Positions 22,495-47,169 of a stretch of DNA of 51,017 nt are shown here, piece after piece; within the stretch, counting starts at the first letter, position 1, and each line of letters begins with the position of its first letter. Made by a program: the position numbers and the translations under genes. The stretch is taken from NCBI GenBank assembly GCA_016181175.1, contig JACOZV010000001.1, positions 323,519 through 374,535 on the forward strand. Direction: 5' to 3'. The DNA comes from Candidatus Yanofskybacteria bacterium. Lineage in GTDB: Bacteria > Patescibacteriota > Minisyncoccia > 2-02-FULL-40-12 > IGHO2-01-FULL-4-A. The notes below the pieces were generated by a model that saw only the letters and a list, made by a program, of their open reading frames with translations, was not told the origin of the DNA and made no database searches.

Positions 22495-23781
22495 ATGAGG
22501 CTATCCAAACTTTTTACTAAAACTACTCGCGAAAATCCCAAGGACGAAACTAGTATAAATGCCCAACTGCTTGAACGCGGTGGTTTTATTTACAAGAATT
22601 CCGCTGGGATTTATACCTTTTTGCCCTTGGGTTGGCGGGTTGTGCAAAAAATAGCCGGTATTATCAGAGAAGAAATGAATAAAATCGGCGGAGTGGAAAT
22701 GTTTATGCCAGCGTTGGTTGAAAAAAAATATCTTGACGCCACCGGACGCTGGGACGTAGAAATTGGATTTAAGGTGACTAACGGTTTACTTAGTGGTTCA
22801 ACCACTAAGTCTGACTTAGTGGTTGAACCACTAAGTAATTTTGTTTTGGGTTGGACTCATGAGGAAGTCCTGACTGCGATTGCTTCGCGTTTCATAAGCT
22901 CGTACAAAGATCTGCCCTTTGCCGCTTATCAGATACAAACAAAATTCCGCAACGAACTGCGGGCCAAATCCGGTCTTTTGCGCGGGCGGGAATTTATGAT
23001 GAAGGACCTTTATAGTTTTCATGCCACGCAAGAAGATTTGGAAAAATATTATGAAGAAGTAAAGGGTGCCTATCATAAAATTTTTCATCGTTGCGGCCTG
23101 AAATCGATTTATACAGTTGCCGCTGGCGGGACATTTACGGCGGAAAACACACACGAGTTTCAGGTTCTATCTGATATTGGCGAAGATACTATTTTTGTTT
23201 GCGATAAATGCGAATATGCAGAGAATAAAGAAATCTCAAAATTGATAAATGGCGATCAATGCCCGAAATGCCTTGGCGAAGGCGAGGAGGGTAAAATTAC
23301 GGAACTAAAATCAATTGAAATCGGCAACACATTTCCGCTTGGCGATAAATATTCAAAAGCATTTGATTTGAGATTTGTTGACGAAAAAGGGGAGTCACAC
23401 TTTGTGATCATGGGCTCATACGGTATTGGTTTGGGACGAGTGATGGGGACGTTGGTAGAAATACACCACGATGACGAAGGTATTGCTTGGCCGGAATCAG
23501 TATCGCCACTTAAGGTACATCTAGTTGTTTTGTCTGGTGCTGAAAAAGTTGGTGAAGAACTTTATGAAGAACTATTACATAACAGCATTGAGATATTATA
23601 TGATGATCGGGTCGACAAAACCGCAGGGGAAAAGTTTGCCGATGCCGATCTGATCGGTTGTCCGATACGATTGGTTATCAGTGAGAAGACTTTACAAAAA
23701 AGGAGCGTTGAGATAAAAAGGAGAAGTGAAAAAGAGGTGAGACTAGTGCCACTTGACAAAATAATAGGTAGTTTGCTATAA
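22495..23781 (+). CDS. proS: Prolyl-tRNA synthetase, compact form with an in-frame palindrome insertion
   Basis: 428-aa class II aminoacyl-tRNA synthetase. Visible parts are LLERGGFIYKNSAGIYTFLPLGWRVVQKI near the N-terminus, LGWTHEEVLT (motif 2 region), FRNELRAKSGLLRGREFMMKDLYSFH, SYGIGLGRVMGTLVE (motif 3) and a C-terminal anticodon-binding domain (KVHLVVL, LIGCPIRLVIS). It lacks the large editing insertion of the 570-aa bacterial type. Between GFKVTN and NFVLGWTHEE, where homologues have only a few residues, about 17 extra codons come from a perfect 24-bp inverted repeat (22786-22838), so the palindrome is translated. A strong promoter for the next RNA lies in its last codons. Confidence 0.93.
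   Translation: MRLSKLFTKTTRENPKDETSINAQLLERGGFIYKNSAGIYTFLPLGWRVVQKIAGIIREEMNKIGGVEMFMPALVEKKYLDATGRWDVEIGFKVTNGLLSGSTTKSDLVVEPLSNFVLGWTHEEVLTAIASRFISSYKDLPFAAYQIQTKFRNELRAKSGLLRGREFMMKDLYSFHATQEDLEKYYEEVKGAYHKIFHRCGLKSIYTVAAGGTFTAENTHEFQVLSDIGEDTIFVCDKCEYAENKEISKLINGDQCPKCLGEGEEGKITELKSIEIGNTFPLGDKYSKAFDLRFVDEKGESHFVIMGSYGIGLGRVMGTLVEIHHDDEGIAWPESVSPLKVHLVVLSGAEKVGEELYEELLHNSIEILYDDRVDKTAGEKFADADLIGCPIRLVISEKTLQKRSVEIKRRSEKEVRLVPLDKIIGSLL
22786..22838. repeat. Translated perfect palindrome in proS
   Basis: Two exact 24-bp inverted arms (22786-22809 and 22815-22838) around a TCTGA spacer. Each arm is itself nearly palindromic (CTTAGTGGTT / AACCACTAAG). It is read in frame as GLLSGSTTKSDLVVEPLSN. 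Confidence 0.9.
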
Positions 23782-23782
23782 T
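23753..23782 (+). promoter_or_regulatory. Strong predicted promoter at the 3' end of proS
   Basis: TTGACA (23753-23758), 18-bp spacer, extended -10 TGCTATAAT (TATAAT 23777-23782). It is the best consensus promoter seen in the window and points into a gene-free, highly structured stretch, which implies a noncoding transcript. Confidence 0.8.
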
Positions 23783-23788
23783 TACATT

Positions 23789-24013
23789 ATAAAAGTATAG
23801 TTCTAGAGCCTAGCAAAAAGTCCCGAAAATAGTTCTTTTCATCCCAGCACCTTTCGCTTTGCGAAAGGTGCTGGGCAAGTCTTTCGGGACTGTTTGCTGG
23901 GTTGCTCAAGTGTTTCAAGAACAACCTTGCTTGCATCGGTGGGATGCAATCTCCCGAGCGGATTGATCCGTGTACGGCGTGTCGCCGAACCCTATCCGCT
24001 CGGGGTTTCTTTG
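23789..24013 (+). ncRNA. Predicted structured noncoding RNA, unassigned
   Basis: Starts at the predicted +1 of the strong promoter. A rod spans 23809-23901: a lower stem of about 20 bp (CCTAGCAAA and AGTCCCGAAA with TTTCGGGACT and TTTGCTGGG), a 14/6-nt internal loop, then a perfect 15-bp upper stem (CCCAGCACCTTTCGC, loop TTT). A small hairpin TTGCATC/GATGCAA follows. The 3' end is an 11-bp stem (CCCGAGCGGAT/ATCCGCTCGGG) followed by TTTCTTTG, a good terminator. The rod with a central bubble recalls 6S RNA, but I see no further support. Not RNase P, tmRNA or SRP RNA by the motifs I know. Confidence 0.65.
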
Positions 24014-24025
24014 TTAAAATACATT

Positions 24026-24289
24026 GGAGGAATTAACATGATGAAGTTTTGGGGCCAGTAAAGCCCCATGGCTCTTGCGTTCCTCCGAGGGGCAGCAATG
24101 CCTCTTGGTTTGTTCCACCCTCTACCATACCGTTGAGTAGAAAGGAACACTGGTATGTGGAAACGATGGGCAGGCCGGGAGAGCTTGTAGCCACCGAGCG
24201 GGCTGATCGTTGTTTGGCCAAAAGCAATGGTTACTGATGCCCAATTTTTTAGTCGGCTCCCTGACATTGGCCGTTCAGGGAGCTTTTTT
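24026..24289 (+). ncRNA. Structured transcript with three tiny ORFs, a pseudoknot and a terminator
   Basis: GGAGG (24026-24030) precedes ATG 24038 by 7 nt, opening MMKFWGQ (24038-24061). A second ORF of 22 codons starts at 24068. A third, MWKRWAGRESL (24155-24190), has AAAGGAAC 6 nt upstream. TGTTCC (24111-24116) can pair with GGAACA (24144-24149), and CATACC (24126-24131) with GGTATG (24152-24157). These pairings interleave, forming a pseudoknot that buries both the ribosome site and the ATG of the third ORF. A 9-bp stem (GCTCCCTGA/TCAGGGAGC, 24256-24283) plus TTTTTT ends the unit. Whether it is a regulatory RNA, a peptide operon or both is unknown. Confidence 0.5.
24256..24289 (+). terminator. 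Terminator of the tiny-ORF transcript
   Basis: Perfect 9-bp stem GCTCCCTGA/TCAGGGAGC followed by TTTTTTA. Confidence 0.85.
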
Positions 24290-24310
24290 ATTTTTAGTTT
24301 GCTAGATTTA

Positions 24311-24354: not shown

Positions 24355-24395
24355 AACAACAATAATCAAGAAGGAAGTGTCATAAAAAAGCGAGG

Positions 24396-24540
24396 CCATT
24401 ATACCTCATAGCACCGTCAAAAGAGTGGATTGCACGGTTTGCGAGCAGTATAATAGTAAAACACTGCGAGCAAAATCCACGCTTTTGACGGAATGCAGTC
24501 CATTCGCTGGGTGGACAAATGGTGATATGAGGGATAATGG
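24396..24540 (+). ncRNA. Multi-branched structured element upstream of mreB
   Basis: Closed by CCATTAT-A-CCTCATA (24396-24410) with TATGAGG-G-ATAATGG (24526-24540). Inside is a long arm: CCGTCAAAAG with CTTTTGACGG, GTGGAT with ATCCAC, a one-sided bulge, TTTGC with GCAAA, a tandem GA/GA internal loop, and GCAG with CTGC around a 15-nt loop. A second arm pairs GTCCA (24498-24502) with TGGAC (24512-24516). The tandem GA loop is a classic RNA rather than DNA structural motif. It stands just before the mreB promoter. Confidence 0.65.
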
Positions 24541-24553
24541 TGAGCGATTTTTT

Positions 24554-24582
24554 TTGCTTGTTAATATTAATTCTGTTATTCT
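24554..24582 (+). promoter_or_regulatory. Predicted mreB promoter
   Basis: TTGCTT (24554-24559), 17-bp spacer, extended -10 TGTTATTCT (TATTCT 24577-24582). The start would be about 4 nt before the mreB ATG. Confidence 0.6.
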
Positions 24583-24593
24583 AAGTTGTTATC

Positions 24594-25643
24594 ATGTTCG
24601 ATAAACTATTCAATTTTTGGTCAAAGGATATCGGGATTGATTTGGGTACTGCAAATACTCTGGTTTATGTCCGGGGTAGAGGAATAATTATTGATGAGCC
24701 GTCAATTGTTGCGATAAATCAAAAAACTGGTCAAATTCTTGCCATTGGCCAAGATGCGCGTAAAATGGTTGGCCGCACCCCGGGCTATATTATCGTTTCC
24801 AAACCGCTCATAGCTGGTGTTGTTTCTGATTTTGAGGTAACTGAGCAAATGCTCAAGTATTTTATTGACAGGGCACAAGAGAAATCATTTTCTTTGATTC
24901 CGCGTCCGCGCGTAGTCATAGGCGTTCCGGCAAGCGTTACTGAAGTAGAGAAGAGGGCAGTTGAAGATGCGGCCTATAATGCCGGTGCCAGAGACGTTTT
25001 TCTTATAGAAGAGCCAATGGCTGCGGCAATCGGTGCCAGGTTGCCGGTGCAAGAAGCGGCGGCTAATCTGATTATAGATATTGGAGGAGGTACAACCGAC
25101 GTGGCGGTTATTTCAATGGGCGGGGTTGTCGCTTCGCGTTCCTTGAGAATTGCCGGTGACAAATTAACAAGCGATATCAGTTTGTTCATGAGGGAAGAGC
25201 ACAACATATTAATTGGCGATTCAACCGCAGAAAACATAAAATTAGCCGTTGGTTCGGCTTATCCTTTGGAAGAAGAGTTAACTGTGCAGGTTCGTGGTCG
25301 TGATCTTTTGACCGGCTTACCTAAAGAGTTGACCATAACCTCGGAAGAGGTGCGCAAAGCAATGCACCGTTCTATCCGAGGTATTGTTTTGGCAATTAAA
25401 AATACGATCGAGGAAACACCTCCGGAGTTGATTGCGGACTTATTAAATAGAAGCATTTTTCTTGCAGGTGGCGGCAGTTTGTTGCGGGGATTTGATGAGT
25501 TAATTAGTCACGAAACCAAATTGCCCGTAAAGGTTGTTGATGATCCCATGACAGCTGTGGTGCGTGGTTGCGGTATGGTACTTGACCACCTCGATTCTCT
25601 TAAGTCTGTACTGGTCTGGACCGCTAAAGAAGCGTATATATAA
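24594..25643 (+). CDS. mreB: Rod-shape actin MreB
   Basis: 349 aa, full length. Actin-fold ATPase that guides lateral wall synthesis under the membrane. Phosphate 1 motif DIGIDLGTANTLVYVRGRG near the N-terminus, EPMAAAIGARLPVQ, phosphate 2 motif IDIGGGTTDVAVIS, and the adenosine motif LAGGGSLLRGFDELI near the C-terminus. The N-terminal MFDKLFNFWSKDIGIDL resembles the membrane-binding start. First gene of mreB-mreC-mreD-mrdA, and apparently nearly leaderless. Confidence 0.97.
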   Translation: MFDKLFNFWSKDIGIDLGTANTLVYVRGRGIIIDEPSIVAINQKTGQILAIGQDARKMVGRTPGYIIVSKPLIAGVVSDFEVTEQMLKYFIDRAQEKSFSLIPRPRVVIGVPASVTEVEKRAVEDAAYNAGARDVFLIEEPMAAAIGARLPVQEAAANLIIDIGGGTTDVAVISMGGVVASRSLRIAGDKLTSDISLFMREEHNILIGDSTAENIKLAVGSAYPLEEELTVQVRGRDLLTGLPKELTITSEEVRKAMHRSIRGIVLAIKNTIEETPPELIADLLNRSIFLAGGGSLLRGFDELISHETKLPVKVVDDPMTAVVRGCGMVLDHLDSLKSVLVWTAKEAYI

Positions 25644-47025: not shown

Positions 47026-47096
47026 TGCGAGGTCGTCTAATGGTAGGACAGCGCCCTTTGAAGGCGTTTATCCTGGTTCGAGTCCAGGCCTCGCAG
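47026..47096 (+). tRNA. tRNA-Gln (UUG)
   Basis: Complete cloverleaf: acceptor TGCGAGG/CCTCGCA (7 bp), D stem GTCT/GGAC with loop AATGGTA (G18G19 present), anticodon stem GCGCC/GGCGT with loop CTTTGAA (anticodon TTG), T arm CCTGG-TTCGAGT-CCAGG, discriminator G. CCA is not encoded. Confidence 0.93.
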
Positions 47097-47098
47097 CG

Positions 47099-47169
47099 CG
47101 CAGGCAGGTCTAACGATAGGACATGGGACTTTGAATCCCAGTATGAAGGTTCGATTCCTTCCCTCGCAG
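47099..47169 (+). pseudogene. Degenerate second tRNA-Gln (UUG)
   Basis: Anticodon arm TGGGA-CTTTGAA-TCCCA and T arm GAAGG-TTCGATT-CCTTC are intact, and the 3' end CCTCGCAG equals that of the first tRNA. But the 5' acceptor strand reads CGCAGGC instead of TGCGAGG, leaving three mismatches and one G-T pair, and the D-loop AACGATA lacks the second conserved G. The changed part, CAGGCAG, equals half of the palindrome at 46822. Probably a pseudo-tRNA. Confidence 0.7.

Follow-up and report, generated by a model that had tools for sequence, protein, structure and literature searches.

A predicted single-copy structured RNA with candidate micro-ORFs upstream of mreB in Candidatus Yanofskybacteria

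In the 776 kb genome of a Candidatus Yanofskybacteria bacterium (assembly GCA_016181175.1), an RNA locus sits between proS and mreB. The window analysed is a stretch of 51,017 nt (contig JACOZV010000001.1, positions 323,519 to 374,535 of the forward strand), to which all positions refer. Its sequence and its relatives identify it as a genuine structured RNA locus, present in single copy and specific to the lineage, whose very short open reading frames (micro-ORFs) are moderately supported. The genome under study is referred to as G000; G001, G002 and G003 are relatives of the same genus and G006 is a further relative. The original prediction had placed at 24026-24289 a terminator-bounded transcript with three tiny ORFs and a pseudoknot over a ribosome site. 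That region covers the 3' half of a larger predicted transcript of about 500 nt: the terminator was correctly recognized, but the limits were drawn too short, leaving the promoter and a conserved 5' domain outside (Table 1).

The promoter is a perfect sigma70 match (12 of 12 consensus positions) and, when the sequences are compared, a promoter with an identical 18-nt spacer is also found at the end of proS in G001, G002 and G003. At the other end, the terminator was missing from the list of a terminator scan because its 10-nt loop exceeds the limit of that scan. The predicted transcript folds with a z score of -8.63, none of 100 shuffles being as good, and the homologues from the genus and from G006 also fold well (z between -7.4 and -9.5).

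Table 1. Features of the RNA locus and its flanking genes, in window positions (SD, Shine-Dalgarno sequence).
Feature	Position	Strand	Basis or remark
proS, proline-tRNA-ligase-like gene	22495-23781		Pfam class II synthetase core and anticodon domains
Promoter TTGACA-18-TATAAT, extended -10 (TGC)	23753..23782	+	Within proS 3' end
Predicted transcript, ~500 nt	23789..24295	+	Promoter and terminator positions; start site inferred
5' hairpin, arms AGCAAAaAGUCCCGAAA / UUUCGGGACUgUUUGCU	23812..23898	+	Covariation, family-wide presence
Near-invariant loop of 5' hairpin, AGUUCUUUUCAU (GUUCUUUUCAU, GUUCUUUNNAU)	23831..23842	+	Alignment
Palindrome inserted in 5' hairpin loop	23843..23876	+	This genome only; absent in G001, G002, G003, G006
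Hairpin CCGAGCGGAU/AUCCGCUCGG, then GGUUUC	23954..24003	+	Fold
ORF1 SD, GGAGG at 24026-24030	24026..24032	+	Paired in fold with anti-SD 24080-24086
Micro-ORF1 MMKFWGQ	24038..24061	+	SD and ATG
ORF2, 22 codons	24068..24136	+	Called in the original prediction
ORF1 anti-SD UUCCUCC	24080..24086	+	Invariant in G000, G002, G003
UUCCACC, can pair with ORF3 SD	24113..24119	+	UUCCACCC invariant in three congeners
Hairpin CAUACC (24126-24131) / GGUAUG (24152-24157)	24126..24157	+	SD in loop, start codon in stem
ORF3 SD AAAGGAA (AAGGA 24142-24146)	24141..24147	+	AAAGGAG in G002/G003, GGAGG in G006
Micro-ORF3 MWKRWAGRESL	24155..24190	+	SD and ATG; core kept in relatives
Hairpin H3 (CAGGC, 7-nt loop, GCUUG)	24168..24192	+	Spans ORF3 end
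Hairpin H4, 11 bp, loop GGCCAA (24216-24221)	24205..24232	+	Covariation
Intrinsic terminator, U-tract after hairpin	24256..24295	+	Loop UUGGCC 24267-24272 kisses H4 loop
mreB	24594-25643		Pfam MreB_Mbl

The most widely distributed part of the RNA is its 5' hairpin, in which two-sided compensatory changes were found at 8 of the 19 pairs among eight sequences, a number reached by none of 500 shuffles; for this alignment, a palindromic insert was removed by hand from the rows of G000 and G007. A covariance model of the hairpin recovered a single convincing copy per genome in all family genomes (8/8) and one further copy in G010, a member of another family; matches elsewhere in the class, outside the order, look like ordinary terminators by eye. 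A DNA search detected fragments of the RNA before mreB in G002 and G003, with weaker ones in G001 and G006, so that synteny places it directly upstream of mreB in five genomes including G000. The RNA is single-copy in its genome and the searches gave one copy per genome. In G004 an isolated 5' hairpin, possibly no more than a terminator, precedes mreB; the gene that follows the hairpin in G005 and G007 is instead one resembling a murein hydrolase activator (EnvC-like by eye). Further downstream in the 5' half, G002 and G003 have at the matching place a GC-rich hairpin equivalent to the one followed by GGUUUC. Another arm, with UCAUCA as its internal loop, is common to G001, G002 and G003 and missing from G000; it has two compensatory pairs and weak statistics. 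The idea that the 5' loop pairs in antisense with the start of a gene was dropped, its complement ATGAAAAGAAC not being found elsewhere in G000, G002 and G006.

Two observations concern the surroundings of these homologues. In G001 (L032, about 70-220) a tRNA-Ile-like gene with an insertion of about 50 nt in the D-loop region lies between the promoter and the RNA, and is reported by neither ARAGORN nor Rfam. In G005 and G007 (L134 and L135, near 1500) GGAGGTGATCCAG occurs in a GC-rich hairpin that precedes the conserved 5' hairpin by about 200 nt. This sequence is complementary to CTGGATCACCTCC, which is found at the 3' end of 16S rRNA in related genomes. When GGAGGTGATCCAG was searched for, most matches in the other family of the order looked like 16S genes, whereas those of G005 and G007 did not, their context showing no 16S gene.

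The 3' domain, for which a covariance model matches G000, G002 and G003 only, includes H3, H4 and the terminator. In H3, 100% of the pairs are kept in the three genomes, and G006 has CAGGG/CCCUG, a compensatory closing pair (by eye); two-sided changes affect 5 of the 11 pairs of H4 and 3 of the 8 pairs of the terminator stem. The loops of the last two are complementary: a kissing helix between GGYCAA in H4 and UUGRCC in the terminator can be formed with 6 bp in all three genomes and is backed by one compensatory C-G to U-A change. This interaction had been overlooked in the original prediction.

Concerning the micro-ORFs, two of the three that had been called, ORF1 and ORF3, hold up, each with a good SD (GGAGG and AAGGA, respectively), while ORF2 was judged spurious, having no SD and no ATG at that place in G002 or G003. 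Two short ORFs with SD and ATG in the region compare with a shuffled mean of 0.12 (P = 0.004). The counterparts of ORF1, of 8 codons, are MKELWGL in G002 and MKELPDQ in G003, with SD, start, stop and length kept; ORF1 is absent in G001 and G006. In ORF3, the core WKRWAGRESL with its stop codon (33 nt) shows four differences among G000, G002 and G003, all of them synonymous (P 0.004), and its start shifts by 9 or 12 nt among these genomes, so the reading frame is kept. The G006 counterpart, MPRCFLWRAGDWTL, is in frame, SD-led and ends at the same point, with a different sequence. The enrichment in tryptophan (Trp) codons that had been proposed for the peptides is retained for ORF3 in the close relatives but not for ORF1, whose Trp codon is lost in G003.

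Both ribosome sites can be covered by structure within the transcript, as the original prediction had suggested for ORF3. The anti-SD of ORF1 lies within a 13-nt block, GCGUUCCUCCGAG, that is invariant in three congeners. In the case of ORF3, the pseudoknot is formed by two interleaved helices, both of which exist in G000; such a pair of 6-bp helices appears in 0.17% of segment shuffles and in 3 of 1084 window tiles. Its conservation is incomplete. Helix 1 (24111-24116/24144-24149) has 6 bp in G000 but 5 in G003 and 4 in G002, each of the latter two including one G-U, and the pairing of UUCCACC with the ORF3 SD, being 6, 5 and 4 bp long, is therefore weak evidence. Helix 2 changes from CATACC/GGTATG to CATGCC/GGCATG in G003, which is compensatory, and a different hairpin is found in G002 (by eye). 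Of the two helices, helix 2 is supported by a compensatory change in one relative and helix 1 is weak. A terminator-bounded transcript in which structure covers the ribosome sites of translatable-looking micro-ORFs is supported, and comparison with relatives indicates that pairing and ORFs are both conserved to a degree.

No known housekeeping RNA matches this locus. In a search with 4227 Rfam models no family exceeded the gathering threshold there, only tRNAs elsewhere being matched otherwise, and the best match in the region was the terminator stem of PyrG_leader (23 bits against a threshold of 65). RNase P RNA (rnpB, C1:155454-155926) and transfer-messenger RNA (tmRNA, C3:83416-83770) were ruled out, both being encoded outside the window; they resemble the locus in being structured and of similar length, and tmRNA also in having a short ORF, but no tRNA-like domain is present in the RNA locus. 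A protein-coding reading was dropped as well, since a minus-strand ORF of 135 aa and a plus-strand ORF of 62 aa have no Pfam match and are broken in relatives. A search for viral contigs found none. Neither the Rfam searches nor the full-text literature searches brought up a catalogued match or an account of RNAs of this kind in the lineage.

Among known systems, the dual-function small RNAs (sRNAs) SgrS, VcdRP and RNAIII (PMC4021124, PMC8672173) are alike in a stand-alone promoter and terminator, for which the Yanofskybacteria RNA has strong and conserved sequence signals, and in a structured RNA, a short SD-led ORF and a narrow phylogenetic range. The Yanofskybacteria RNA differs from them in that no base-pairing target was identified for it, in its two micro-ORFs of 7 and 11 codons compared to the 29 residues of VcdP, and in its more elaborate architecture with a terminator kissing loop. 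Attenuators of the trp-leader type also combine a Trp-containing short ORF, alternative structures and an intrinsic terminator; in contrast, no biosynthetic genes lie downstream here, no alternative antiterminator was found and there is no conserved run of control codons (besides the loss in ORF1, the two Trp codons of ORF3 are separated). The leader-peptide-controlled RNA that had been envisaged is, in its classical form, not supported: the RNA has its own predicted promoter and a strong terminator, and the conserved promoter-like sequence of mreB also occurs in genomes without the RNA.

Some observations made elsewhere are recorded here. The upstream regions of L031, L033, L040, L041, L037 and L099 contain repeated elements of the form CTTCGCAAAAT..ATTTTGCGGAG (by eye), whose 3' arm can also pair further downstream, giving two mutually exclusive helices. 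Several of them flank tRNA-like genes, and they may represent an uncatalogued element that is widespread in this order. Within the window, Rfam reports two adjoining tRNA matches at 47026-47168, of which ARAGORN gives only the first (tRNA-Gln, TTG).

The sequences or their comparison directly show the promoter and the terminator, the compensatory changes that accompany the folds, the synteny, and the SD-led micro-ORFs kept in three congeners. The reading we prefer, with about an even chance of being correct, is that of an autonomous, lineage-specific RNA gene of the Yanofskybacteria family with a dual function, carrying ribosome-accessible micro-ORFs. From these features we infer transcription, translation, a partner and refolding, and the following mechanism can be proposed. 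Transcription would begin at a promoter that belongs to the RNA, at the end of proS, and stop at the RNA's own terminator, and the conserved 5' hairpin with its fixed single-stranded loop would serve as the recognition element for a trans-acting partner, either protein or RNA. The 3' half would carry one or two SD-led micro-ORFs with ribosome sites masked by anti-SD segments of the same transcript and, because of this masking, loading of a ribosome would make the RNA adopt another fold around the kissing-loop terminator domain.

Several points weigh against this proposal. No conserved perfect chromosomal complement of the 5' loop was found in the genomes searched, and pairing between this loop and an SD is significant in G002 only (11 bp), borderline in G000 (9 bp) and no better than in shuffles in G003, G001 and G006. 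The full 3' domain is found in three genomes only, so the covariation there rests on few events. A minus-strand frame, when read at the four sites where ORF3 varies, gives a similar, although imperfect, synonymous pattern (by eye), which makes the coding signal of ORF3 weaker than its P value, and caution is also needed with the ORF3 core as it overlaps hairpin H3. Finally, G001 keeps the 5' half of the RNA with its 5' hairpin, as well as the UCAUCA arm, and has no SD-led micro-ORFs, its ORF3 counterpart being weak and without an SD; the RNA fold is therefore the more durable feature.

These last points are those expected if the RNA were purely non-coding and the micro-ORFs were by-products of purine-rich loops and conserved hairpins, as the pairing of H3 would by itself conserve the overlapping ORF3 sequence. 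This explanation is possible, if somewhat doubtful: G000, G002 and G003 agree in SD spacing, start, stop and frame, G006 retains them with a different sequence, and combinations of SD and ATG are in excess over shuffles (P = 0.004).

A role as a 5' leader that acts in cis on the mreB operon, through regulated read-through of the terminator, is considered unlikely. The model for it is UpsM, an sRNA derived from the 5' leader of the dcw cluster in Rhodobacteraceae, for which terminator read-through has been described (PMC5089854). UpsM is also family-restricted, lies directly upstream of cell-wall or cell-shape genes and has an intrinsic terminator and a possible small ORF, the likeness being one of description. 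The immediate position before mreB in five genomes, a gap of merely ~45 nt from terminator to mreB in G002 and a kissing loop that could modulate termination are all in line with such a leader. However, unlike the UpsM case, a promoter-like sequence, TTGATTGTT..TATGNTAA, is found just upstream of the mreB ATG (by eye), and similar sequences are present whether or not a genome has the RNA, G021 being one that lacks it. In G000, in addition, the RNA terminator is separated from mreB by a dispersed palindromic repeat of about 170 nt (24389-24560), of which this genome contains about twelve other copies, complete or partial, and its congeners many. This repeat and the conserved promoter-like sequence make an obligate mreB leader unlikely, and in G005 and G007 the 5' hairpin precedes the EnvC-like gene. 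Occasional read-through into mreB, as in UpsM of Rhodobacter (PMC5089854), may nevertheless take place.

That the locus is essentially a micro-peptide mRNA, whose function would lie in its peptides (above all WKRWAGRESL) and whose fold would serve just to regulate their translation, appears quite improbable. The exclusively synonymous changes of the ORF3 core and the masked SDs agree with it, and part of the micro-peptide operon suggested in the original prediction is retained in that SD, start, stop and frame of both ORFs are kept in G002 and G003; on the other hand, the G006 peptides differ strongly and G001 offers no convincing equivalent, in contrast to the family-wide 5' hairpin. A remnant of mobile palindromic repeats that folds well because it is palindromic is very improbable. 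The clade is indeed rich in dispersed palindromic elements, with one adjoining the RNA and another in its 5' loop, but the RNA is single-copy, its promoter, synteny and terminator are retained, and its orthologues differ by compensatory changes.

Returning to the dual-function RNA gene, a far-reaching extension, which we regard as a long shot, is that a ribosome on the 11-codon ORF decides, via the H4-terminator kissing loop, the fate of the RNA and the read-through into mreB. The locus supplies concrete coordinates and base pairs that are directly testable. If true, ribosome-gated control would mean that an ultra-small bacterium governs its cell shape by an RNA switch. The presence of a large single-copy RNA in a genome of less than 0.8 Mb, combining a conserved promoter, a covarying fold, a terminator kissing loop and SD-led micro-ORFs, suggests that these reduced genomes keep elaborate RNA regulation.
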